NCBI GenBank assembly: GCA_020055645.1 | Contig: CM034549.1 | Span: 9,327,501-9,391,500, forward strand | Source of the DNA: Tomocerus qinae | Taxonomy: Eukaryota; Arthropoda; Collembola; Entomobryomorpha; Tomoceridae | Direction: 5' to 3' | Length of the DNA: 64,000 nucleotides | Shown: piece by piece, positions 14,511 through 56,500 of the stretch | How positions within the stretch are numbered: the first letter of the stretch is position 1 | Layout: every line of letters starts with the position of its first letter | The notes under the pieces: model-generated | The model's database searches: none | What the model saw: only the letters and a program-made list of their open reading frames with translations | Told to the model about the DNA's origin: nothing | Translations under genes and position numbers: made by a program

Positions 14511-17500
14511 GTAAGTCTTCACAATTTATGCATTCTTTTACTCTCCTCATGTATTGTTACCACGAAGAATATGGATTGTTCATTCCTGTGGAGCACTTCC
14601 GCTTATTTAACACAGTAAATCTATAGCTTCACAGACCAAGACATTATTAATAGCCAACAGACGGAAACTGAAACTAAACATTTTTCATTGTCTTTCATGT
14701 CAAGAGCACTAGTCTCCTTGTTACAATTTTCCCTCTTAGAAAATACTCAAAATGTTTTGTAAGATAACACTTTTCAAAATACTTGAGCTGGAAGAATGTT
14801 GAAATTATTTTTGAATGTCTTCACAAAGAATTAATTCAGGATTTTGATAAAATACTTTCAGCTCAGTGCAATTCCCCTATGGGAATGGAAACAGGCGAAA
14901 TACCAGATAAAGATTTGACTGCATCAAGTTCGTTTGAACAAGGAAATGTTGGTCCTCAGAATGGAAGGTAAAAAATCCTAATTTATATTCATAAATCATA
15001 TCAAACACATTTCGACATAATTAGGGGGAAGTCGTTTCGGAAATCAATTTGCAGCATCAAGTTTTTTTAAATCCCCATTACCACAAATAATTGCATAGGC
15101 ATAAGATTTAAATCTGCTACACAATTTACTAGTGAAACGAGAAATTTTCGAGTAGGGAAGGATAAATTCCTTGAAAATAATATTTTGCCTACAGGTTTAT
15201 ATATGAGGAGTGTGTGGTTCAACATTAAAAAGGAACAGAGGTTGGGTTTTGTGGGCTAAATGAGAATGAAGGGATACCTACAGGGAGGATATATAAAGAC
15301 TGTTGAGATGGCGAGTCCATTCTCGTCAAGGTGAAAGAGATCCTAATCAAAAGTCGACAGAACATAATCCCATAACAAAACATGGGTAGCTGCAATAACA
15401 AGCTCGGCAGGATTGCATTGTGTTAATAACTATTATCCTTTTCACATTTCGGACAAGACGGGCCGGAATGAGGGCCAAACTCTCTAATTAATGGACAGGA
15501 TGATTATCAGGGCATAACCGGACTGAAACACCAAGCTAGTCAAACCGAACGGTTATTATAACTTTTAATATTGTATTTCCAGATGTAGCAAAAGTAGTCT
15601 CCGGGCACTACTCAATTCTGATGAGTTTTAATTATAACTAACGCTAAATATCTAGCATAGTAGATATTACTTTCATTGTGTAAAGAAGACAGTACTCCTG
15701 CATAATATTTTTTCAAGTAGGGAGGTACAGGTATTATATATAGCCGACTAAAGTTCATCTATTATCTGAAAACTCATTTGCAGTTACTACAATGGAAATT
15801 CACTTAGCAAAGCATTAGGTCCCCATTAAATTTTATGTAAGGTTAGTCTTGTTCATTACTAAAGCTGTTATCTCTAAACCTATCACTAACTGGCTACACT
15901 ACCTGACGTTAATTTACTATTTACAATTTACACCGCATTACTTTATCGGTATTGCTCCGGTCTTAGACTCACTTTCATCGGCTATATTTTTTATCTCTCC
16001 CTTAACAAGTCAGTCAGATTGTTGGGAATTTTAACAATATATTTATTAATACGCACAATGACGTTTATTGTCAGTCTATCTCTGATACTTTTCTCTAACT
16101 ACTACTACAAATGCTAGAAAGCAAACCACACACATGCTGACATTATCTGTCTGTCATTTAAAGCTAAAATCGTTACTACTTATTCCTTTCTGTGTGCGGT
16201 AGATACAAAGCGAAGCTTTGTGAATGTCTACTCTGTAGTTTATGATATAAGATCAACTTGCAAAGCAGATCAATATACAAACTAATTACGAATTTCTGTT
16301 TGAATAGTCGGCATGTAAACCTAAAAAACTACGATAGCTTTCATCTACGTCTATATGAGTGATATTTTGGGAAAAATGAAATGTGTTTCATCCTTTTCAT
16401 CACTCAACCATAGCTTTGTTCTCCTCCTCTCCTGTTTGAAGCATTGAAGTCTTAATAATGCACGTTGCTAACCAAGTGAACTATTCATTTCAAACCATAT
16501 GGTTAAATTATGGATTTTCAGTTTCTCGATGGACTGATGTCAACTAATACTCACGTCATTTGTGATCTGCCCTAACCTAACTTCAGCTGACTCAACACTA
16601 AAATTCATGGATAGGGATTGTCTTGTAATAATTGGTTTGCATTCTATACGGTCGTCCTTTAATGTTTCATGTCAAAGAAAGCCAAACTTATTGGATTTGG
16701 TCATTTTGCTTAAATTTTTAAAACTATTTATGTCTCTTTGTATCTACTTATGAAATATTACCAAAGACTAACTATTTAAAGTTACGTTCTGTTACACTAT
16801 TCTTTGTTAATGATGTACTAAGGCTTTCCTAAACTAAGCATATATCAATTTGTATAGCAGAATAGTCCGTCTGTCTCCCCCTTTAGAGTAATATTATTAT
16901 GAATAGGAGCTAGGGTTTCATAAATTTCTCAATTCAGCGGAATCCAAAAGTCAAACTTTGGCTTAAGGGATCTAGGACGAGAGTCAAAGTGTAAATCCCG
17001 AAATGTGTCAAGTCTCCTCCTCATGTTTGACAGTCATATATGATATATCCACACAACTGTCTCCAATATCCATATAGGACTCTTACTAGGATATAACGTT
17101 TATAAAGAAAATGGGGGACAGAAGATGCGGGCTATTTATGTGTATAGTATAACTGGAGGAAAGGTTCGGTTAAGATAGGATGAGGCATTATGACACAGAA
17201 GCCTTTTAGGATCCGAGTTTCCATTCCAGTTCCATAAGTTACAGTTTTGGGTTACACTGACATTTACACTTTAGCAGACCTACTTGCATGCATGCGTCCT
17301 TAGGATTTTTCCTTTCCCTGGGCCACAGTAATAAGTAAGTCTAATGGTGTTTGTTAGGAGGGAGTAGGTCGTCCTAGGGTGTCAGCAAAACTATGCGGTT
17401 AAGCTATGCACGAATGTAGGCTATTACTGTCGAATAAAGGAAGTCGGGCATTGGGAAACCAAATCTGAAAAAAAATGAATCCTCCAAAAGTTAGAGGGAC

Positions 17501-20500
17501 GTGTGTTTATACGTCCATATTAAAACTCTAGAGCTTCAGACATGGCCAGATGCACAATTTTTGTTAGAAATGATGCGACACGCTCTTTTTTGACTAGTTT
17601 CATATTTTCTGACCATTTTTATCCCATTGTGCAAATGTATAGCGTGAATTATGTTTTATTGTCATCATAATATTCAATTCTATTTTGCGTTTTGTTAGGA
17701 TGCTAAGAATATTAGTTCCACAGTGTCACTTTTGTCATTAGGATGTATTGCATTATCAAAGTGTGTACAAAAGGTAGCTGCAGTTTAGTAAAATTAAGTA
17801 ACTAGATTGCAACATGCATTTAGTAATCCAATCAGGAGTATTAGCAGATGAAGGGAATTGTCAAAGTGGCTTACAGCAAATGGAATGCTCATTGTCAGAT
17901 GTATATGTCTGCATGGTAAAGTGATGTACATATTTACCTATTTAAATTATTACATGTCCTGAGCTAGAGTTTAATAGCTTGCAGAAGAGGACTGGCTTTG
18001 ACAGGGAAGCATGTTGCTTCACAGTGCAATTGTATTATGCAAGAATGCAACAAACCGGGTAGCCTGCCACAGGAGATTCCCCTCTGTTCTCTGTTTTGCT
18101 TCTGTTGCTTTCCTCCGTAGCTAATTAGTATGATTAATTGGACACGTGACAGATATTTTCTAGCCTGACTTGCATAATGAGCCTGTGAAAGATGAGACTA
18201 AAGGCATTGCCTTCCTTTCTCATTTCATTTGCTCTACTTATTTGTTAAGTGCAGTATCATTCAAACATATGTATACTAAATGCAGTTGCTCACTGTTTCA
18301 AAGTTCGGTGCATTTTATAATTTTCATCTGAAATTGGATTAAAATATTTCCTATTGAAATCAGGTCACGTCATTCTCCATTGCCCATTCATAAATAGGTA
18401 CATTTTCATAATAGAGTTTAGATTCGCATTCAGGAAAGAAAATGTGATCTTGTGAACCAATATAAAACTTATTAAGAATACAGTAATGGAAATAACATTG
18501 AAAATTCCAAAACTTTGCATATAAGAAATAAAGGCTGATTGACAACTTCAATCATCATCACTTATGGTTTACAGCCAAGGCCTATGGTGCTTTGACTGCT
18601 TTGTTACATTATAGACCTTGTAGCAATTGTAATATTCAGCTTGAGTGTACAAGTACACAGAATAGTAAATTAATATCTGTACTATAGGAGAGTGTGGATC
18701 TATATGGGATGGGATAGCACCAAATTTGTCAGTCACTCCACTTGAATCCAATAATCTTAAGTTTAATACAGACTTCCTCTTCCACTCACTTCTTGAATCC
18801 AGATCTATCCCACCCAAAACCATAATCCATTTTACAAACAGCCACACTCGACACTCAACTCGGATTGAAATCAGGAAATAGTATTAAATTCCTGGCTTGA
18901 TTTCAATTTGCACCGTTTAAACTTCAACTTGTAAACTTAACCTTCTTCCCTTCAGTTGTATCAAGTCCAATTCTCTTATAGCATGTTACATAATATCACA
19001 GATGATTTTAATATTTACTCTTCATTCCTCCATCCGGCATTCTCTTGACAAGATGTGAAAATGATGATTCATATTTAATTCCCGATTCTCTTTGAATTGC
19101 TTATTTGAAACATTCCCTCTTTCAATTCAACTCTCTCAACAACTTGAAACATTTGTGACTTGTCTAGTCTTATCTTCGTAATCCCTTCCGTGTGTAAATT
19201 TCTCTCAACACTTTAAAAAAAGAACTTCCCAATGAATCATCACAACAAAGAGCATTGATCATAAACGAATCTGTACATGCAATAAGAAAAATGACCCTTT
19301 TCGTCTCTGTCTCTCTTGTTTACACTATTTTTTGTTTTTCTGTCCCAAGTGGTTTGTTTTTCCTCGAGAAATTCATTTGTCTCATTTATCAAAATCATGA
19401 TGTCCATAGTAAGAAATATTTCGTGCTGATGCATACAGTGATAACAACGCGAATCTATCAGTTTTCTCCTAACGTGATGATAATGAAGAGCTGTATGGCT
19501 GATTGCATTGTAAGATGCTCATTAGAACCATCCGTCATACCCTAGGGAAATTAATTAGCTGTAATTTATTTTAATAATGCAGAATGCTTGTCTTGTATCT
19601 TCAATGGGCTCTACTCTCCTACACCAATAACAAGTTTACTTATGCAAGAATTCCCTATATTATATCAGACTATAATATTATTAGGATGCGTTACGTTCCC
19701 TTTCATACTTATTAGCTCATTGATGATTAATTAGTACACTACTCTAACATTGAGTTCTATTCAATTGAATTGCATTATTGTGTAGATCCACAACTTGAGT
19801 TGTGAGTTTAAGAGGCCAAGTCAAGTCTGCAATTTGTTACGCGTGCAGCTAGCAGCAATTTGTACTAACAGAAAAATAAGGTAAAACGGATAGAAGAGCC
19901 TTTGAAAAATTACCACTACAAAGGAGCACAACAGGAGCCTTTGAGTCAACAATATAAGGGTCCTTTTATATTTGTCTGCACTCGGTGGATATCATTGGAA
20001 TTTTTTGTGGCAGTATTTTCTAGTCTATGCATCTTTCCAATAAATATCCTGACTAAACAGTCAGAGCCTTTCATTAGCTTCTTTCCAGTTTTTCATCATA
20101 TTTTGAATGAATTTCTTTTCATAGTAGGGTTCCCCATTTTTTGTGTTGGATGAGGGAACGATAGTTGGTTTCATATTAGATACTTCACTCACATAAACAT
20201 CAAAGATAGAATATGCGGAGGGTTTACGGATATTAATAACGTTTACATTATGAAACGTTGACTTGTGTTGTTGTATTTCGTAATAAGTAATGATGATGAT
20301 GATACGGGTGAAATATCACAAGATATGTGTCCAGGGTTTTGGATTTAATTAATAGGAAAAAGGGATTCTTATAAGTGAGTTTAAGTATTTAACTTTGTAG
20401 TGAGAATACCTACAGCTATGTAAAACAGAGCCCTTTCGGCTAAATTATATTTATATGTTAGGTAAGTGGTTGGGTTTACTTGAAATAGTAAAGTAGTACC

Positions 20501-23500
20501 TTAAGTATGATTGATATGAATATTTTCACCCTGAGCATTATGACTGTTACCACAGAACAGAGATGAGAAGTAATGGGCTGTAGCAGTTAGGAGTTAGCCA
20601 AGTTGCCTATTTATTACGGCAGTGCTTAGACAAGGCTTGTTGAATAGAGTGAAATGAAATTCCAGAGTTGTTTCTGATGGTTTCGTTGGTTATTTAGTTT
20701 CCTTCCCCTTCCTTCCTTATTATCTTATGCTTTTCATCCCCTTCCTTCTCTATCGGTAACTTCCTCTATATTTTCTACCTAATACTCCAGTTTGATTTCA
20801 ACATAACTACTTTGTGGTTTATGCATATTATTGCTAACTTTCAGCCATCGTAGCTAAATAATATGTACATTGCATGTAGGTGGCTAACAATAAGCCAGCA
20901 CCACATTTTCTCTAATAAGTCTTATCTCCTTTGCTTAACTCTAAAAGAGTTTATGATTTGGCTGTGACGTGGTGTGGGCTCCTTTCCTCATTCATGACAT
21001 CCCATATTGTATAACTATATGGGATATATGTGTATGACTATTATTAGTGGTATAAGACGGAGCCTTGCTCAATTCATTTCAATTCAAGGGGAATGGAAGG
21101 CTTAGGCATCACAAGACAAGTGAATCAAATCCAAGGGAAGGCAAAGATTTTGGACTGCGGGCGGAATTAATTTATCCTTCCTATCATCACATCACATCAA
21201 CATAACAGCCGAATAGAAAGAGGTCCGCACCGTCTGCCATATCATCAGTCCACCCTCATTCTGAAAATCCTATATACTCACACAGTGTATTCTAGTTAAT
21301 ATGTTTATGTAAATAATTATACTCGTATTACGGACTTTTTTCCTCTGCGAGAAAAGTCGGTTTGTTCTTCTCAAGTCTTGTTTAAAGGTTTGATGATTAA
21401 ATCAAAATTTCATTTGAACAGCTTACGTGAACTCTAGCAGAATCCTTCGCCTACCATTGTAAACCACTTGTAATAGTGAATATAAAAGTTTTAATAAATA
21501 CAGATAGGACAACGTTATTAATCAGAAATAGGTACAGCTTTTGTTTTTATAACACTTGAATTTAGATACTTGAAATGTAGTTACAAGTTCTGATGTTACC
21601 AAAGATTGTTCCCTGATTTGTCTTCACTTTCTTTAATATGTAAGATAGAATTATGGGTGAGTGAGTATGCATGTAATATTCAATAAAGTATGAATAGCTA
21701 TTTGATATCATGACATCAGATCACAACAGAACGATATCAACTTGTCAGTCACTTTTCAACTTGGGGTGGGGTGGAATCCATGTGATTGGATACTAAAGAA
21801 GATCTATTGTGTTCTACTCTTTCTGCTGACTCTACACGCTTTTCAAAGATGAGGGTAAAACGGTGAAAGCCGTCATCTCCTCATAGATTAGCTATGCATC
21901 ATACTCCAGTGTCTCTCTCTTCACTGATATTATCATCACATCGTTTCAAAATTGTTGTTTCACAAGTATGCATTTATCCTACTACCGTAGTTTAGCCACT
22001 GGTTCTACATAATTAAAAAAAATTCTATTTTGTCAGTCTGCCTGGTCGTAAGAATATGGGGTGAGTAGCCAAAATGGATAATGTCACTTGACAAATGTGT
22101 ACTGTACAAATTTTCTATTACCATATTATAAACACAGCTGAATTGAATATAATAGTAGGTACGTCGAAGAAAACAATCTGTATTTGAAATTAATATTACA
22201 ATTTTAAGCCTTAAGAAATTACTGATTGACGTAAGTCAAAAACATTTTCGTGGTCGTATCAAAAATCAAAAAAATGCGTTCAGAAATAATTGATTAGCTC
22301 CTAGTGTTTAGCACATTCAAAGATTGATAATTAAAATATCCAACTAAGTATATCTATAATGCCACCATAGTACATAATTACTTCGTTATTGTATACATTT
22401 AACATTTAACCGTTTTGTCTCACGATATAGTGTATTTCATAGGAGTTAGTGGAATGCATGTGTGAGGTGTCATTTTAACCAGTAGAGTTGGAAAGCTAAT
22501 GCTACTGTATGTACCTATGAAGTGAAATTAGTAGGAATGTCATGTAAAATAATTTGATGTCACTGGAAAGACATGACAAGTTCAAATCCCCTGTTTATGA
22601 TAATCCAATATTAATCTGGAGTAATGTGTAGAGGTGGAGACATTTGCATTCCTTCCGTCAACTGAGACAGACAGACAAGTGTAGTGAGTTGACAGGAGAA
22701 GGCAGAACTCCCTTCTTCTCATGCATGCTATGCAGTTGAATGCAAGTAGTAAATTAATGCAACTGCTAAAGTGTATTGCTACTGGGAATGCACACTGTGT
22801 ACATCTTAAGCACTTATCAATCTAATACGTGCATACTTGGGAAGAATTCTCTTGTAGTTCTAGGAGCGAAAGGAGTTGAGCTATTTAGATGCAGTAAATA
22901 AATGCATTATGCATCACACGACACGTATATTAATTCTGCCTTGTCTTTCATTCCTTTCGGTAGCTTGCTTTTCCGTCTTCACGTATTCTTATTAAAGGTA
23001 TCTCTCTTTGCACTCGGGCTTATACTGAATTTACATAGTTTAGTTGCCAGGATTTTACGAAACGAAAGTCACGAGAATGTGCCATCGGCTTTTCTCCAGA
23101 AAAAAAACGAAAGATTAGCTTTTCTAGTCTTTACCGAAATTTGTTGTATTTGGAATGTCTACTAAATCTAAGACTCCTGTTGGTAGATTTAGACTACATG
23201 GCTAAGCACATCTAGATACCACCACAAAGAACAATATTTCAATTTTTCCAGCGCATTAAAGTTTCTGGATGATCAACGTAATATATTAACATAATAAGAT
23301 TACGCACATCAGCTGAGGCTCAAGCTCAACTCACTCAACTCGCCCATTTTCTTTCCCTGACTCATCTGATCTCTCTTCTTTTGCTCGGATGCATTCTATC
23401 TTTGTGTCTTCCTTTCATTTCGTCTTCAATCACTCCTAGCACAAAAAACTACATACACACATTCTACCCCCACAACTATACAAACTTTATGTCTTCTTAA

Positions 23501-26500
23501 AATTTTATTTCGATAGTTACTATTAGCAAAGGAGATGAGAATGAGTAGAATGCTATGAATTCGTATGGACTTATGAACAATTTAAGTTAAGGTATGCTTC
23601 TTGGGTAGACTAAGCTAATGTCAAGCTCAAAGTAAAAAGCCCCTCAAATATTCATTCTTCATCATCTCTACTCATCACTACTTGGTAAACAGCGTTTGTA
23701 GTACACTGTCTTGCTTTACCTATAGCTATAGGCCTTGACTTGTGCGTTGCCGCATAAGAAAGCACATGAGAAACTTTTAAAAGGAGAGAACACCCATTAG
23801 AAAGGATAATCTGACAGATTTCCAGGGGAAACGACCCAGGGATTCTCTGGGAGCGGTGTTTGTCCTACACAACTCAACCATATTGTACATTACCTGACTA
23901 GCATGAGCCGAATTTTATTGCACGCAGTCTACCAACCTACTCTAGACAAGATTTAAGACGGAATGAGCACCCAGCCCATTAAACCACAAAAAATATGATT
24001 TCCACAGGAAATATATTAGAAAAGTGTACAAAACTACTATGAACAAAATAATATTATACACTTGTTATACTCAACATTGGCAATGCGGGAAACAATTTCT
24101 GACTAACTATTACATGCTTACTTACAATTACCTGGATAATTTCATGCCTACGTTTGTCAGTATATTTTGTGACCTGTTGGACTATACACTATCTTTGGCT
24201 TAAACATTGTTTAGCGTGTAACTTTTTAGTAACGACTGTAAGTAAGTAACAAATGTAAGACACTACAATTGAATTCAACGCAGTGATAGCGAAGAAATAA
24301 GCCGAAGGGCAAGGCAAAACCAAAGAAACCACACAGATAACAGAACAGAATATAAATAAACCAAAGGATACTCACTAACTGTCTTAAAGGCCATTAACAT
24401 GACAGGATGCATTTCTAATCCAATCTTCCCTTCAAATAAACTACCTCAGCTATCTGTCCGTTTAATGTGTATTTATGTACAAACACACTTTTCTAATGCA
24501 CATAGCCTATTCTAACTACATACTAAACGGGAATTATCAACATGGACAAACAAAGAAACTTCTTTTAAACCGATTCTATTTGCATTCTTGACTTGCACTT
24601 GCTTACATGCCGGACAACACGATAAGTTGTTCTTATACCATCCGTCCACTCAAAATATCTATGACTTTTGTTGCATTTTACAGTTCTGTCTTCCTCTCTG
24701 TCGAACAGTGTAACCTACACTTGTTCCTTATCTAAACCTTAATTAATTTAATTTAATGCAATAGTTTCTTCACCAAAGTTCTTGTCTTTTGGGTTTTGTT
24801 ACTGATACCCTGGGAAATTAAAAGCGGAAATATGGAGATAGTAAAAAATTATTGCACATTATGTTACATAAATGTACACTCGGTGCGAATTGTATTTGTT
24901 GCAACATGACATGATGAAAACGAAGATAGCTCCTACTATTTTATCATATCACATTCGCTCTCAAAATATACTTACTAAGTCAACGGTCATTTCTTAATTC
25001 AATTACCAAAACAAATTCAAAGCACCATGATTTAAATACAGAATGGCACAATTGAGATCTTCATCTACAACTAATTTCAATCTTCAAAATTGTTTTTGGA
25101 TGATTGTTTTTGTTAAATGGCATGGATAAATAAAATGTGTGTATTGGGCTAAAACATTTTATTGACTTTTCTTATTTGGTTCTAAAATCTAAAAAAAAAT
25201 AATTAATTGCTACTAGGTCGCTTTATGGTCCAATGATTGGTAGTATCAAATATGATTTCTAAGTGTGGGTTATTAATACTTTAATGGAGAAACCCTAATT
25301 GCTGATTGCTGTTTTTGTGAATGAGAAAAACGGTCGGATAAAAAACGTCTCATTTGGAATTTGAAAGTTTCAACGTAATGAAGCGTTGAAAGTCACATAA
25401 TTTAGCTGAGAATTGAGTCGAGACTTGATAGGATAGGAAATAAATTGGATTGGAAATGATAGGAAAGACAAGTCAGGAGAGAAAAGGGAAAAAGTTACCT
25501 TTACTTTATCTTTTAGTCAATTCCAAGTGAAGTGAAGTGAGTCTTGAGCTTGAAAGAATCCAACTAAAAGGCAAAAGCTCGATTATAAAGTGCTATATCA
25601 CTAACTAACTAAGTATTAGGAGGGAATACGTGCAATGAACGAATTCTCTTTGAAATTGCATCAGTGAGCTAGTATGTCTTCTCTATCTAATTCAGTTGAC
25701 TTTTGACTTGCTTTTTGGGTTGAAATTGGAAGACGTAGGTTTATATGAAATGCAAATGTAGTAAGTGGTATAATGCAAAGAGAAAGTAACTATATATTAT
25801 AATGATATTACCAATAATAGACGGGAATAGCCCCTGTGGTATTTTTAGTCACGTTTAGTTACCTAACCTTAAGTCAAGTTCAAAGGATGCAATACATATT
25901 CGGATGCAAGACAAAAGTTTGGAGTTGAAGTCTTATGTGAAATGAACATGAGATCCCTTTCGGAGATAGTTGTCCCTAAATAGTTGGTATATACTCATAT
26001 ACCAACTAGGAGTTGTAAAAAGGAGTTTTTCCTGAACTATTAGTTTTCTATTGGGACAAAACACAAGTGAAGAGTAAGACTGATGAGAGTAATGCCAATG
26101 TCACCGTTAGTGCTCATGTTTCTTCAGGTTTTATGTTTTATCTAATGTCCCTCGTGCATCAACAGTGTAATACCATACCTTTGCCGTTAACTTGTTAGGT
26201 AAGAAGTGTAAACGGAGGGAAATCAGCATAGGAAGAAGTACGAGAGATAAACCTTGATAAGATGCCATGCTATGCCACTTATAATTATAACAGTAGGGAG
26301 ATTATTCAAGTATAGTTCACCATCCCACCAAGGAAGAGTTCATGTAAATGCTTATAGAAGAATCAGTGTCAGATTTATTTCAAGTGAATGTATTTTCGAG
26401 TGGGTAGTTACAATTATACCTACGTGAGCTTGACTGTAATGCTTAGTCTTTACTTTAACTTGCACTGACTGTCGGGCACTTGCTATACGAGGAACATTAT

Positions 26501-29500
26501 TTTATGGTCCCTTGACTTACATTAGATAACTCTTTCTTACATTTGCTATTGAAATAGCTAGGAATAAGGTGACTGACTAACGGTACTTAAATTAATGTTC
26601 TTTTCACTATCATCACTGATATTTTTCAGATAAGTTTAGTTTTTAAACCGTAAAGATTGGCGTAGCTCGTGAAAGCGTCAGGTTCTATGAAAAAGTCATT
26701 CATGTGAAATTGGTCGTAGAGGATTTGATGATATTCTGCAGGTTTCGGTACCCGACTTTTCCAAATTATTGGAGGAATTTCACTCTTTCTAGAAATTGGC
26801 CCGGGTACTTTTCCAATTATAAAGTTTTTCTCAGTACCCTTCATTTCTAGCTTTTTTGCTAGAAATTTGGCTTCCTCGTTTGTTTTGGTACTCCATTGGA
26901 ACTTGCATACGAAAATTGACTCAATACTATGCATTTCCAGTAGGCTCTTTAGAAAATCTGGGTTCAGTTGATTTGGGTTTTTTCCACCTGCGATAGAAAT
27001 CTCCCTCAAGGCTGGGAATAATTGCTGCGCGTGTAAATCATTGTTTCGTTTTGGGTCTAAGATTCCTTCAACATTGCATTCGTACATGTGAAGCTGTTCA
27101 AGACGATCAAACGAGGAAATGGAATTATTATTGCGAATACTTAAGTCATACAGCGCAACGGATGTGAAATTCGGTTTTAATTCGAAAGAATCGGACGGAT
27201 TTGGCATAGAATCTCCGTTGATTCCAATTCCACATCGGAATGAACTGTGTTTTATTTTTTGAGCGATTGTTTCTCGTTGATTCCAAATTGTTATTTCACG
27301 GATATTGTCGCATTTTTTGAGCATAGACGACAATGATACTGTATACGGTCCTACGAAAGTGAATTTCGTCAGTAGATGAGGCTGAATGTTTTGATGCCAT
27401 GATAAAATGTGGCTTCTTGTCTCCGTTGTCGAAGATATCACAGAGAGTTTCTTCATTCTTTGATTTCTCACACTCTCTAATAATGCTTCAGAACATTCTG
27501 CTAAACCCCTATTAACGAAATGAAGATTTGGATCCTTATGATCCACTCCACAAATAAACATGTCATTTAAGACAACTCTAATGTCTACATTTATCGAATA
27601 GATCTCATCAACAGCCCAGGGAATATCCCAGAATTTATTGAAGAAAAAAAGTTTCTCAAAATAATCAGATTTCTTTAGATAGCTTGCATTACCTTTCATG
27701 TTTACATCAAATCGTCTCAACTTTGGTAATGATACTCGAATTTCCCTTTCGAAATCACCAAGAACAGTACAGTTTTCAATTCTAAACGTTTCTACATTCT
27801 GTAAGGCCTTTTGTGAAGTCATTAAGCACTTTTGCATTGAGCTGGCAACTATTTCCCCCGTTTTCAGAGCAATCTCAATCACTTGGTGATTTTTATCACA
27901 GGTTAACCAAACATCACTATTTTCATCCGCACTCCCTATACTTCCCAGAGTCATTATAGACATCTCCCCATTTTTTACACTTTTCCGACTGTCTACTAAC
28001 ACTACATTGTAAATACAGATACGCATGTCTATTTTAGATAGTTGAACGCTTTTTGTACTGAAGAAAAACACGGGTTTTAAATTTCTACTGTACACTTCTC
28101 CTTGTGGAACTTCTTGTGGCGGCATTTCTTCATAGTGAAACAACTTTAAGTCACAAAGCGAAGGTTTCGTGATCCAAGTCGTTTGCAATTTCCCGAACAA
28201 TCTAAAGTTTACTAATTTTAATTCTTGTAGTTTTGTCAGTTGTCCCAAGTTTTCTAAATCATTTCGGTGCAACTCCACGAAAAACAGTTGCAGTGATGTT
28301 ATCGTTGATTTTAATGATGGAGGAGTATCTGAGAATTTGAAGACAAAGACATCTTCACAATTCTTTGCACCTAATGTTATTTTTTTGTAGTTTTCTGTCA
28401 GGATCTTAGCTGCACTAACATTATTACTGAAGATTAATGACTGAATTAAATGGAGAAATGCACTTTGACCTTTATTCCTAAAAGTTTTATAGAATACGTC
28501 CAGTTTGTCTTTATTCCCAACCTGAAAGAAAAATGTTCATGGTCATACAATCTTAGAAACTAAATAGACACGCATGAAACTCGTGTGAATTTGTAATAAA
28601 ACTTTGACTTACGATTCCAAATATGGTTTCTTCTTCCGAAGCGGTTAAAACTTGTTTCGAAATCAAAAACGTTGTGATCTTTTTTAGATTTTCTGTATTC
28701 TCCACAAGAAAATCCAAATGTTTCAGGATTTGACTATTTGACAAATATTCAGGCTCCTCCATAATTTTGTAAAATGCACTAACAAAATTCCTGCACAGTG
28801 ATTTGCAATTTAACAGGTCTGATTTAAAGAGCTACTGGTGATAATAAAACGCAGGAAGTTCCTCACGAAATTATTCTACGATGTAGTAATAATTTAATCA
28901 AGCTCAAACAAGCAGCGTGTTGACTGAAATGATTCACCTTGCCATATCATATGTGTATTATCTCGCAATCCTTCATTTCACAGAACAATTATAGCGCACT
29001 GTAATAAAACAAATATTAACATAAGCTCATTCTAGATGTATTATATTACGTAATTGATGTAATAGCAGCATAAATATAAAAGTACACTTACACAAATAGA
29101 AAATTCACACACTGTTCGACAGGATTCCCCATTTGTTCCATCGTGTGCACTCCTTCTCACGTACACAATGCACAAACTACTAGGTACTGCATTGTATACT
29201 GTGGTAATTCACATCATTGCACATAGTGTGTCTGTTAATATGATTTCCCATTTAGGTTATCTGTGTAAATATTCAAATGTAAAGTAGATTTTACGTAACC
29301 CAATGCAATACTATGAACTTTTCTATCTGCACATTGTTTCCAGGGGTAAATGTGTCACTTATAGAAAATCCAGTTGATATTGAAGTGTCCTTTCACACAC
29401 CACTATTGAAAAAATCCATATATCCAGAATACTCAGCACTATTGATGAATTGGGTAATGATGACTTATCTTTTAGGCACTTACTATCTCCACTGCGTAAT

Positions 29501-32500
29501 GTACAATGTATTTATCTCGAACGTAATTCTGTAATCCTCTAGCTTTTCATTCTACCTTATCTCAATCGTCAATGATATTTCCGTTAAAAATGGAGAGCCG
29601 ATAACTTCATAAATGTGTGCTCTTTCTACTGCAGCAATGGAATGAACCTAACAAACATATATGGACACAATTAGGTATTTCTTGGTTTCGCTGGGAATAT
29701 TTACGTTATAGCAATGGTATATACATACGGGTAAAAATATGAATATTTTATACCTTTAGTAAGTTGCAGCAGTGCTGTAAAGGCAAATGGGCCTGTAATA
29801 TTCCACTCCAGGCAGGAACAGGAGCCTATTTGCTACTGTAATGCTAGAAGTACCTACTTAAAAAGAATGAAGGCACTTTTGCTTGTGTTGTGTGATTGTG
29901 TGGTGGTATTTGTAAATATGTTTATGGCATACTCCTGTTCACAATCAAATCAATCATAGTTAATTGCAAGACTTTGAAGAGCAAAGGAATCCATAGTAGG
30001 CAGGTGCACTAATTTAATATTCGACCTTATTCCCAAAACCATACTATGGCTGGTGACTACAAACATGTGTAACGTAAAACCTGTCTGTTCTTGATTGAAT
30101 TATGAATTGAGAGTTCCAGCACTGTCCTACCTGCCCTCCATCCTAAGCCTAAATATACACAAACAGGCAGTCAAAACGTATACCATAAACTCCTTATACA
30201 TACTGCAACCACTACCATAATCAAGGATGTTCACGGGCAAAATTCATACTAGCTATGCATGACTATGCTTTTACATACCTATCGGTAAACATCTTACCTT
30301 AATGTTACAATGTTTTATTATCAAAAACTTTATGCGCATAGCGATTTATATTTCCTCATACGCAGTCAGCCCAGTTTATTTCTACAAGAAACAAGGCCTA
30401 ATGTAAATAGTATGTAAAGTATTAGCCGAATTATTAACAGAAATACATGGGTTCACGTATCATAGTGTTTTGCAACTCGATTAGATGGATGGACGCTTCG
30501 CTTGCTGGCTATTTCATTCCGTGATGTAGAATAATCGATTTATAATTGATTATTTATTTAGCACTTCGATTAATATGCATATCCCACACATCTTCATATA
30601 AGGAATTTGCTTATTACTACACCCTATACGTTCCTTAGTTATAAAAATCATCACTTGAGTATCTAATCCTGCATTCTACAGCTTATACCAAGTCGTTTTA
30701 ATACGAAAATTCCAAAACAAGCTTATTGGAAACTTTTAAACAATTTTTATTGTTATGCAGGTTTGAAGGTTAAAGTTTTAATGAAAAAAGGAAGTACAAA
30801 ATAAGTAAACATCGACAATAATTACACCAAAAAGTATAATTCAGTAATTATGTAGATTCAGACCTCAGGGTCGCAGTATTATGACCTTCCTTCAATTAAC
30901 TTCTAAGATATTAAGCTGACATTTACTTAAACCTTTGTTTAGCCTAATAGAGTCATTTATCTGCCTTAATTAGATGTTGTATTTATGTCACGTCCCTTTA
31001 CTACTATAGGTACCTAGGCAAATTACCAATGTAAATCGAAAATGAAGCCATATAAAATGAAAACAGTAATGACATGTTATCAGGAATTTATTTGAACTAT
31101 TACTACCCATATTGCATATGGTTTCATTGTAGTTGTACAGTCCATAATAGCACAAAACTATGCTAGAATAGTTAGACACAGACACGATGATACTATCTAT
31201 CATGTACGCAATATTTCTTTTATAACTCAGAAGTGTTGACTGCACAATTTACCTCAGCACACATTTTTAGACATCTGAAATCCTACAAAAGACTGACTAC
31301 GTAAACAAACTAACACACAAAGCATATACCTAAAATAAGTAGAAAATACAACACAACACACTCGCGGCACTCACGTTTCGAAGGTTTAACTATACTACAG
31401 AAATGCAGTAGAGCTGCAGAAAATGCTAACCAAACCTATTTTTATTTTATAGGGTTCGTGTGGAACGACAAGGAGGTGCATGGTGCCCCAAGAGCCAAAT
31501 CACCTCAGAAGCGGAAGAATGGTTGCAGGTAATAAATAAAAATTATTGTTTTCATTTTACAATCTAAATGCAGTTTTTTGTCGCATTTATCTGTTCCTCG
31601 AAGTCGACATCGTAGATATTGATACAATTTTGTTAATGAAAATGTATTCCTTACAAATCAATTAATTTATCTACTGTAACTAACTAATAGAATAATTATC
31701 ATCCCATTAAAATTTGAAACTGGAATTGGATCAGCCCAAAATAGAAGGTTGTGCATTCAGAACCTCAGCATACATATGTACAACTTTTTTAGCTGTATTT
31801 GGGTTTCTGTCTCGTCATGAGGTTTATTCTCTTTCTCAAGTTACACGACCTATCCTTTCGCATCTCTTTAGCTCTGTCTTGTCTCCGCATGCTGTTCTGT
31901 TCTCCTGTAGTTGTAGTATGAGCTACATAAGCTGTCGTGTGTTGCGTCTTGCTGAGTCTGCTATCCACATCCCTAAAGATAACATCAAATCACATCACAT
32001 AACATCAGCACCAAACGAACGGAACAGAAAACCCAATCTTATTCACCTTCTGTTACATTGGAATACGAATGTCTTTTTACGTCGGTACTTAGCTGACTGA
32101 CGTTACTCTACACACGTTTCTAAATGCAGTAACACTATGCTACACTTACATCCCTGTATAAATGCCGTTCAAATGTCTAGCCAAATAAAAAGTGACAGAC
32201 TATAACAAAAGAACCTATTTCCTTTCCTCATTCACCTCTTTTCTTTTAGTATTCATTGTCATATGCTTTTAGTCTTCATTTCTCTCAGATTTTCATTCCT
32301 TTTATACTCCATATACTTTATATAGTAGTACATGTACACTGAATATACTATATAATTCAATCCATAAATCATTCTACACATCAACTTTGATCATCACGTA
32401 TGTATGTATAAAACATTGATCCTGGGAATCTATATTTGTAACTCATTTTGTACATTTGCTTTACAAAGCCGTATTCAAATCATATACTAGTAGTGTGACC

Positions 32501-53500: not shown

Positions 53501-56500
53501 TAGGTTTCCTCATTTTAGAAACTTTGGCTTTTCTATAACTATATACGATCATTTTCTGAGGTTAGTGCTTAATAGCATTCGATTGTTTTGTTTCCTGTGA
53601 AGAATTCTTAGGAAAACCTAGGCTTATTGTACTCTGTAATAAGCTAGGCTTCCACAATAATTTCTTTAATTTGATTTATGTTCCCGGAATTTCTCATTTG
53701 ACACTCTCTGAGTGAAAGATAATTCTCCATATGCATGAAATTGTGATGACTGATGACACGCACATTCTATAAGCACAACGTGCAGACAGACGTGGTAGAA
53801 GAATGTAACATTTTGAATGGTACTGACAAAACCAGGCTCTATGTAGGATAATTGCAGAAATAAACCTGATAAAATTATAAAACACAAATAAATTCTATTA
53901 TACAATCGTAGACTTAGAAAAATTTACTAATCTATGTATGCATGGTAGCGCAGATTTGAATTTTACCGCGTTGATCCTAGGGGGCATTATTATTACTATA
54001 TAATACCTTTCGAAATCGAGTCGCGCATGCTAGCCAACTTGAGCTTTTAACATTTGCACGTTATAACATATTTGCCTTGAGAAAATTCAAACGCCGGCCA
54101 AAAACAATTCGGCTCAGAACATCATCGATACTATGCATCACAACGGTGTACGTTCACATATGAGATTATTATCATTGCCGAGTGTGCAACTTTGGATACA
54201 GTAGGAATCGTCCCCAATCTCTACCTAAATGGATCAGCGACGCTACCTACCTATCCAAGTACACAGATTTACATGGTACTGTATTCTGTACATATTATAT
54301 TGTATTACACAATGAGACCATTAATACGCTTACATATGCTAAAATCACTATAATATAATATAAATCATGCAAAAAATTACATTACATGATTCTAAGCTAT
54401 AAAATGTATTCCTAAACCGAAAATGCTTATTGAGTTTTAGTGACATTCTAGTTAGTTAATAATAATATTAATTGGGTCTAAAACAATCTTATGATATAAA
54501 CTGCTGCTAAAAATGTCAATTTTATGTATTATCTGTATTTGGTTCCGGAAAATTGTAATAATTTTAACAGAAAATCGATAATAATAGATCAGAGATCTTA
54601 CGGGCAAGTCTTATTTCATTCCTTGATGCATTACTTCAATCGTTCGTGTTATTGGGCTTTATACTATTTGCTCATAATGTAAAATATTAGTACTTAAGTA
54701 AATCACCATTTGTGAAGCGAAAAAAAGCTGAGGGTGGGCCGCGAAAGCTTTCTGATTCTTTCTCATTAGTTGCATTATAGGTAGGGATACTCGAATAGAG
54801 AGCGTACGAGTAGGTTGAAAATACTTTGTACTTTGGAGCTAAGAATGAAATATGATGATAACACTTGTGTGTCAATTCACAATCATTTTTCATTGATGGT
54901 TCGGCTAAGTTTCTCCTCCCTCCCTCCATTCCTTCGTGGTCTGGTATAAATAAAATATCCATCTCTGTGTAATACACACACTTAAATATGTAAGCTGCCT
55001 ACTTTCCTTTTCGTGTCAGCCTACTATCTCAAGTACTGAAACTTTTATATGAACTTACTTATGTATAGACATACAGCTACATAAATGTATCGTAAGTGAA
55101 CGAGAACCAAGCTTTATATAGAAAACCATTCGTTTCGTATACTTACACTTTATTCTTACATGGCATTATTACATTAAGTATATTTTCTACCACATAAATG
55201 CAGGATAAGCACATCTAAACTGAAAATCGGAAACTAGAATATGACTCTTGGTCTCGTCTCCTGTTTTTGCCTATAGGTAAAGACGAACGGAGATGGAGAA
55301 AGCAGGATCTTTTGTTATTGTTAGAAAGTGGGTAGTTAAGTGCAGAGTTATGGATCCACCTGAGGGACAGTGTGGATATAGTAAAAAGAAAAGCTTTCTG
55401 TTGAATTTGTATAAGTGCACCTAGTAGCATTATATAGTGTAATAATATAATGGAATGGAAAGTACAATGTTATGTTCGTTGTAGTACGGAAAGAAGAATA
55501 AAGACCAAGTTTGAATTGATGTTTGATGTCTGTTTTTCGTTTGAAGGTATTTTCCGAGGCGAGAGTGTTCTTCAGTGTCGGTGGGAAAAAGTACCCAGGG
55601 GATCCCATCTCCTACACCCCTATGGAAGACTGTATTTTCGAAGAGCCGAAAAATGTCACGATAAAGCTGCATCATCGAATTGGCCAATATGTCAAGTTGC
55701 AATTGTTCTTCGCTGCCAAATGGATTCTCATCAGTGAACTTACTTTCGACTCCCGTAAGTTTTTCACATTTATTAACATCAACATTCACACACTTGCCAT
55801 TTTTATTCCCAACCACAACTCAAAAGACCTAAAATATCCATTTTAACTTTAACTGAGTGGGATTTTTTGAAAGCTTATCATTTTAAGTATGCTTATTTCC
55901 ATCAAATGTTACCACTATTTTGCAACACTTAACTTCATTATTCATAGCAAACCTTAGGTGCACTGTGCGTTAGAATAATTTGTGCGTTGAAAATACATAA
56001 AGCTGTATCCGTAGTTCTACATTATGAATATTATAGTACGAAATATGCTATTTATTGTTATATCTACAGTCCAAAATATTTTATTGATGCCAATGTTTTA
56101 ATATCATGTCCTAAGTAATTTAGGTTTGTAAACATTCCTTGGTATAAAGAATTGTGAAATCACAGGAAAGAGTGTGGAAACGTTTGAATTGACTTTTCTT
56201 ACATGTATTTAAAAGGAAGTTCATTTGTGTACATTTGTAAAGGTGACACTGACAGTGAAGTATATTGGAAGACGATTGTATTGGTTTTACTTACTTTCAA
56301 ACAGTAACAATGAACATCTAGATTAGGTTCCTGTTATTTGTTATCCCTCTCTAAAGCTAGCTTGTTATGAATCTATGTATATATTTTGCTACATGACATG
56401 ATGGAAACCATCTAAACAGTATTTTGTGTAATAATTGAAATAATTCAGCTGTATTTTAAAATGACTCATGGGGTAAGGAAATGACAAGATCAGCGCAATT

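Follow-up and report, generated by a model that had tools for sequence, protein, structure and literature searches.

How a protein with a CARD and leucine-rich repeats (LRRs) could act when no NTPase lies between the two is the question raised by a gene on the minus strand of a 64,000-nucleotide stretch of the Tomocerus qinae genome (GenBank assembly GCA_020055645.1, contig CM034549.1, positions 9,327,501 to 9,391,500; referred to here as the window). In NLRs, the NTPase couples the CARD and the LRR by ATP-driven oligomerization. The gene model, the CARD, the LRR region, the lack of an NTPase, the gene family, and the split-CARD exon structure are established here at the sequence level. As for the role, we lean toward a putatively intracellular CARD-LRR protein that would serve as a co-sensor or modulator in a network of CARD-NB-ARC receptors and a CARD-caspase, in immune or cell-death signaling.

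Structure and genomic position of the CARD-LRR gene

The original prediction described a two-exon gene coding for 681 residues, and its coordinates, its strand, and its 91-bp GT-AG phase-0 intron were all reproduced from the sequence (Table 1). The predicted splice of exon 1 to exon 2, which we infer from the sequence, rebuilds a single domain, since the Pfam CARD match (residues 18 to 90) spans the join at residue 50. Homologs of exon 1 were found at L006, L082, L087, and L088, four loci of the family described below, and at 14 NB-ARC loci. Exon 2 lies in a frame of 636 codons from stop to stop, in a window with a GC content of 35%. The codon usage of the spliced frame reached 0.152 bits/codon, compared with 0.081 for the best of 714 other segments or frames of the window and with 0.018 and 0.080 when the gene is read in its two remaining frames; the codon table was derived from the paralogs and the NB-ARC and NACHT genes. 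The background was taken from stretches of the window itself, so that the values of the control segments are somewhat depressed. The reading frame is kept in paralogs, as in the contig C5 gene L006 (25% identity over 383 aa, E 5e-21). A search of a phage collection gave no match, and NCBIfam gave none for window exon 2, L006, or L008.

Two plus-strand exons, identified as DDR exons by their motifs, stand on either side of the gene, and a further open reading frame in the window matches a DDR domain in Pfam (Table 1); a search of the window with PF00754 gave no match. With DDR exons on both sides, the CARD-LRR gene lies antisense within a DDR intron of 16.5 kb, as had been proposed. No functional link of the gene to DDR was seen.

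Table 1. Positions of features in the window (first ten rows) and of loci elsewhere in the genome
Feature	Position	Strand	Details and evidence
Exon 1	28613..28762	-	Start codon (ATG at 28762) and first CARD half, 50 codons; translation, CARD exon-1 HMM match (window sequence itself in the seed)
Intron	28522..28612	-	91 bp, phase 0, splits the CARD; GTAAGT donor, TTTCAG acceptor
Exon 2	26626..28521	-	Second CARD half, then LRR region; stop at 26626-26628; open frame
CARD, second half	28387..28521	-	Residues 51-95; Pfam CARD
Divergent LRR region	26629..28386	-	Residues 96-681; LRR_14, profile matches to PDB LRR proteins
Candidate poly(A) signal, AATAAA	26374..26379	-	246 nt past the stop; sequence only
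DDR discoidin-domain exon, 3' part	14882..14967	+	Translation GMETGEIPDKDLTASSSFEQGNVGPQNGR; donor at 14968; 5' limit not set
DDR host intron	14968..31452	+	16.5 kb, phase 2, GT-AG, in-frame join
Next DDR exon	31453..31528	+	Translation VRVERQGGAWCPKSQITSEAEEWLQ
ORF with DDR DS-like domain exon	55520..55843	+	Pfam PF21114 (DDR1-2_DS-like), 80.9 bits
CARD-LRR gene L006	C5:13.74 Mb		Phase-0 intron within the CARD, at the fixed NB-ARC position
CARD-LRR gene L082	C1:42.68 Mb		Exon-2 frame short, 243 codons
CARD-LRR gene L087	C4:30.5 Mb		Both CARD halves
CARD-LRR gene L088	C2:4.34 Mb		Splice ambiguous among several sites
CARD-LRR gene L008	C1:68.16 Mb		Second CARD half only
NB-ARC loci with a CARD half	L016, L018-L026, L030-L043		Mostly contig C1
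Example NACHT places	C2:57786436, C3:35689624, C1:76743655 (L086:4971-7499)		

The N-terminal CARD

When residues 1 to 100 were scanned, Pfam CARD (PF00619) scored 26.0 bits, above its cut-off of 23.9; in the full-length protein, the score was 21.4 bits, and this below-cut-off value counts against the co-sensor or modulator reading. An HMM whose seed consisted solely of 16 CARDs from NB-ARC loci in this genome scored the window protein at 18.6 bits, compared with 11.8 bits for the best of 2,000 shuffles of residues 1 to 100. Among the five held-out CARDs scored with this HMM, the window CARD was the weakest (it was scored inside the full protein), which we also count against that reading. Compared with the PDB, the A2 CARD profile matched the CARDs of MDA5, CARD8, CED-3, APAF1, and NOD1, and the CARD family profile reached E values of about 6e-6 to the NOD1 CARD and 0.006 to the NLRC4 CARD. 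The Pfam score of residues 1 to 100, the PDB matches, and the score above the shuffles support the N-terminal CARD that had been predicted, so that, by sequence profile, the protein would carry the N-terminal death-fold effector domain of an NLR.

In a tree of CARDs, the window CARD joined that of the NB-ARC gene L009 (35% identity, support 93/87) and then that of the caspase gene L061 (84/84). The branches were long, only 3 of 22 inner branches were starred, and in no bootstrap tree did the CARD-LRR rows form one group, all of which we count against the co-sensor or modulator reading. The intron of the window CARD lies 3 codons beyond the fixed phase-0 position found in the CARDs of the NB-ARC genes, L006, and L061.

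The LRR region and the missing NTPase

The region that follows the CARD matched Pfam LRR_14 with an E value of 2e-5, under the cut-off of that family. When four family members were scanned, four of the five Pfam families matched at E 0.1 were LRR families. The profile of the LRR family (A1), compared with the PDB, matched 29 sequences up to E 1, with a best E value of 1e-4, and all of them are LRR proteins (LRRC8A/C, a plant NLR, receptor kinases from plants, and ribonuclease inhibitor). Exon 2 alone matched a plant receptor protein (E 0.004), and the motif FFFxK....W....I....V.I is common to the LRR regions of the family.

The loose pattern LxxLxL occurred 27 times in the window protein, against a shuffle mean of 19.2, and 26 of 1,000 shuffles scored as high; its count exceeded the shuffle mean in all eight rows, though the excess was weaker in the rows other than the window protein, and both controls fell under their shuffle means. 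The strict LRR pattern did not clearly exceed shuffles in any of the eight rows tested, the best being L008 (83 of 1,000 shuffles as high). A structure model of exon 2 only had a mean pLDDT of 34.2. The irregular LRRs of the original description are thus borne out as to class by LRR_14 and the PDB profile matches; because the repeats are irregular, their number is not set. The protein would have the C-terminal LRR region of an NLR, given LRR_14 below its cut-off and irregular repeats.

No NACHT or NB-ARC was found in the 681 residues, in which Pfam searched to E 10 gave CARD and LRR_14 only. Since the second half of the CARD and the LRR region lie in a single continuous exon, there is no NTPase between them. 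Both observations uphold the proposed order of a CARD followed directly by LRRs, and the NTPase of an NLR is, as predicted from sequence, absent from this protein.

A small, dispersed family of CARD-LRR genes

The genome (334 Mb, 115 contigs) was searched with the window protein, L006, L008, and L086 as queries. Related LRR regions were found on contigs C1, C2, C4, and C5, and three further places had E values below 0.001 (C5:16.006, C5:8.917, and C1:67.730 Mb), along with several weaker ones. The search for paralogs of the same domain order, which had been suggested as a check, was successful: a CARD stands 5' of the LRR at six places on four contigs, the window included, one of them with the second CARD half only. 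With the family CARD HMM, the joined CARDs of L082, L087, and L088 and the half CARD of L008 scored 58, 48, 30, and 29 bits, respectively, while the best of 1,000 shuffles of each scored 13, 6, 7, and 7 bits. The CARDs of L082, L087, and L088 pass with the family HMM only; Pfam gave no match on those of L082 and L088 and 16 bits, below the cut-off, on that of L087, a further point against the co-sensor or modulator reading. At E 0.01, Pfam found no family in the L006 exon or in L082. A search of about 2.9 kb upstream of L008 did not reveal its CARD exon 1, nor did 1.3 kb upstream of another family member, L010, contain a CARD. Taken as a whole, the sequence searches support the view that CARD-LRR genes without an NTPase constitute a small, dispersed family.

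The N end of L086 seemed to carry a kinase tail, for which Pfam gave no support. This LRR-family gene lies together with a NACHT gene and Peptidase_C14 matches within about 35 kb (C1:76.738-76.774 Mb).

The short exon-2 frame of L082 (Table 1) suggests that some family members may be decaying or may have further exons, and it is the observation that speaks for regarding the window gene itself as a decaying or nonfunctional derivative of an NLR-like gene. We consider such an origin highly improbable: all 681 codons of the window gene are intact, their usage exceeds that of the 714 control segments, the frame is kept to a paralog at 25% identity, and the LRR shows no detectable relationship to the NB-ARC genes' repeats.

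The recurrence of the CARD-LRR order at these six places also bears on the idea that the protein is a direct two-part sensor, in which LRRs clustered by a ligand would gather the CARDs and nucleate caspase activation without an NTPase. The genome does hold a CARD-caspase (see below) that could be so activated; the literature search, which had subscription papers and preprints outside its reach, found no report of a CARD-LRR protein as a precedent, however, and both ligand binding and oligomerization are hypothetical here. We therefore hold a direct sensor to be quite unlikely, and we retain the co-sensor or modulator reading.

NB-ARC, NACHT, and caspase genes of the same genome

The original prediction pointed to the absence of classical NLRs from many well-studied arthropods. 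The premise that NLR-like genes are lacking fails for this genome, which has at least 126 NB-ARC places over the cut-off (253 candidates, of which 126 were scored) and 30 NACHT places; 12 of the latter lie in open frames longer than 1,500 codons. At least 116 of the NB-ARC places, among the matches listed, are on contig C1 (140 Mb). Bacterial control genomes also matched NB-ARC (6 of 14) and NACHT (11 of 14), but in this genome the NB-ARC frames come after CARD exons, with introns, and lie on large contigs. In the best 30 of the at least 126 NB-ARC loci, a second CARD half preceded NB-ARC in 24 (Table 1), and 14 of these 24 also had the first CARD half within 1.5 kb. All 14 loci with both halves have their CARD divided by a phase-0 intron, always in the same position.

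Neither CARD half was found in the remaining 6 of the best 30 NB-ARC loci (L015, L017, L027, L028, L029, and L044). The L027 protein (L027:1-3009, minus strand) has at its N terminus a match to HEPN_DZIP3 below the cut-off, the L028 locus has TPRs, and the L017 protein (L017:1-3324, minus strand) has another N terminus, an unassigned region. The NB-ARC part of L021 (L021:1162-3708, plus strand) matched the bacterial FxSxx_TPR family with an E value of 8e-41 and 140 bits (cut-off, 300), a hint of a possible bacterial-type STAND origin.

Three NB-ARC genes were read to the end, with frames of 1,439, 1,335, and 1,118 codons. Their C-terminal repeats look LRR-like by eye; in Pfam, FNIP alone appeared, just over its cut-off, in one of the three, and PDB searches with the repeats of the three genes gave no LRR match, so we call these repeats LRR/FNIP-like only.

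Peptidase_C14 was found at 38 places, counted exon by exon. At one of them, L061 (C4:11.949-11.951 Mb), a CARD lies 5' of the Peptidase_C14 exons and is interrupted by the phase-0 intron that the NB-ARC receptors also have; its exon 1 matched with an E value of 1.5e-16 and its exon 2 with an E value of only 0.015. A second-half CARD match of 25 bits was found at another caspase place, L066. At L001 (C1:88.54 Mb), a CARD exon (35.2 bits) is followed on the same strand by a Death match of 13.7 bits, below the cut-off, which makes L001 a candidate CRADD-like adaptor. At L011 (L011:1482-1860; C1:42.75 Mb), a CARD-only frame terminates immediately behind the CARD, and a further CARD first-half exon lies close by on its upstream side; the frame possibly codes for an adaptor or a decoy. 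The proposed search for CARD-bearing caspases and adaptors has yielded at least one CARD-caspase, L061, and two adaptor candidates, L011 and L001.

A CARD followed by a stop is the layout of known CARD-only inhibitors, and the presence of such a frame in the genome, together with the lack of an oligomerizing NTPase in the window protein, would fit an inhibitor or decoy whose CARD caps or titrates the CARD assemblies of NB-ARC receptors or caspases and whose LRR provides localization or partner choice. The window CARD is, however, divergent from most NB-ARC CARDs, the nearest being those of one NB-ARC gene and a caspase, and we regard an inhibitor as rather unlikely, if worth keeping in mind.

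Of the first interpretation, the CARD-LRR protein without an NTPase and its small dispersed family stand, while the absence of NLR-like genes does not. On the predicted gene models, the CARD-LRR protein represents a single branch of an extensive CARD repertoire, not a substitute for missing NLRs.

The same assembly has other features that touch on its source. Chitin_bind_4 cuticle proteins and TTAGG repeats are arthropod marks; the former were found at 114 places, and a 30-base TTAGG repeat gave 400 overlapping matches (reversed control, 0), with many sites inside contigs (e.g., C1:6315544-6315648). DIOX_N was found at 19 places; at two of these (C1:120031248 and C2:4509309), the match is full-length and lies in an open frame, of 374 and 368 codons, respectively, which makes the two candidate isopenicillin-synthase-like genes. 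Springtails carry isopenicillin synthase genes, which the DIOX_N places would fit.

Proposed role of the CARD-LRR protein

That this is a lineage-specific immune or cell-death protein, as was first suggested, is plausible in view of its CARD and of a genome that also has a CARD-caspase and CARD-NB-ARC genes. Beyond the assignment of domains, every step given here is one that we infer. The LRR would bind a ligand or a partner; the CARD would then enter CARD-CARD assemblies with the CARD-caspase or the CARD-NB-ARC receptors, and the protein might in this way feed or restrain those assemblies in immune or cell-death signaling. Since it has no NTPase wheel of its own, it would most likely operate as a co-sensor or modulator, together with an oligomer that other proteins form.

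A bolder proposition, namely, that NTPase-free CARD-LRR receptors start or tune CARD-caspase signaling directly, beside a plant-scale CARD-NB-ARC arsenal, seems doubtful to us. If true, it would place an inflammasome-like system in a phylum where one survey judged such a system absent (PMC11508797). The CARD-NB-ARC genes, the CARD-caspase, and the CARD-LRR family make an arthropod CARD-receptor-to-caspase pathway directly testable, and the family raises the question of whether an NTPase is needed at all. The setting, a genome rich in CARD-NB-ARC genes that also has a CARD-caspase, is of more interest than the CARD-LRR gene alone.

Comparison with known systems

According to the 2024 survey, CARD-caspases occur in Arthropoda and arthropod NLRs lack an N-terminal effector domain, for which reason inflammasomes were judged possible in other listed phyla and not in Arthropoda (PMC11508797). 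Expanded families of Folsomia are given in PMC5490193, from whose main text NB-ARC, CARD, and apopto are absent. The literature search for an expansion of CARD-NB-ARC genes in arthropods (Collembola, Folsomia, and Ecdysozoa) found none among the matches listed, subscription papers and preprints being outside it.

The domain-shuffled immune genes of amphioxus, likewise an invertebrate, combine death-pathway and LRR domains in unusual ways, such as LRR-caspase and death-fold-NACHT (PMC2575513); the available passages of that paper do not name CARD-LRR as one of the combinations, and the phylum is different. The shrimp protein LvNLRC (NACHT-LRR) is, like the window protein, an arthropod LRR-bearing, putatively intracellular sensor; in contrast to the window protein, it has no CARD named in the available text, which gives its N-terminal region as one of unknown function (PMC12370184).

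With the NLRC-type receptors (CARD-NACHT-LRR; NOD1 and NLRC4), the window protein has in common an N-terminal CARD and a C-terminal LRR, but it lacks NACHT or another NTPase and has the second half of its CARD and the LRR in one exon. The CARD-NB-ARC-repeat genes of the same genome (L016, L020, L021, L022, and others) have a related CARD, split in phase 0 at nearly the same place, and, unlike the window protein, an NB-ARC over the cut-off. Homology of the window LRR to their C-terminal repeats was not detected in a weakly powered comparison of four with three sequences (best E values, 0.17 for the window protein with blastp and 0.087 with hhalign). The window protein therefore does not appear to be simply an NB-ARC receptor minus its NTPase, and loss of NB-ARC from a CARD-NB-ARC gene as the sole origin is not favored. 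With APAF1/CED-4 and the CARD-caspases (CED-3, Dronc, and caspase-9), the window protein shares CARD homology but not NB-ARC, WD40, or the protease, and the CARD-caspase of its own genome shares the CARD intron and stands near the window CARD in the tree.
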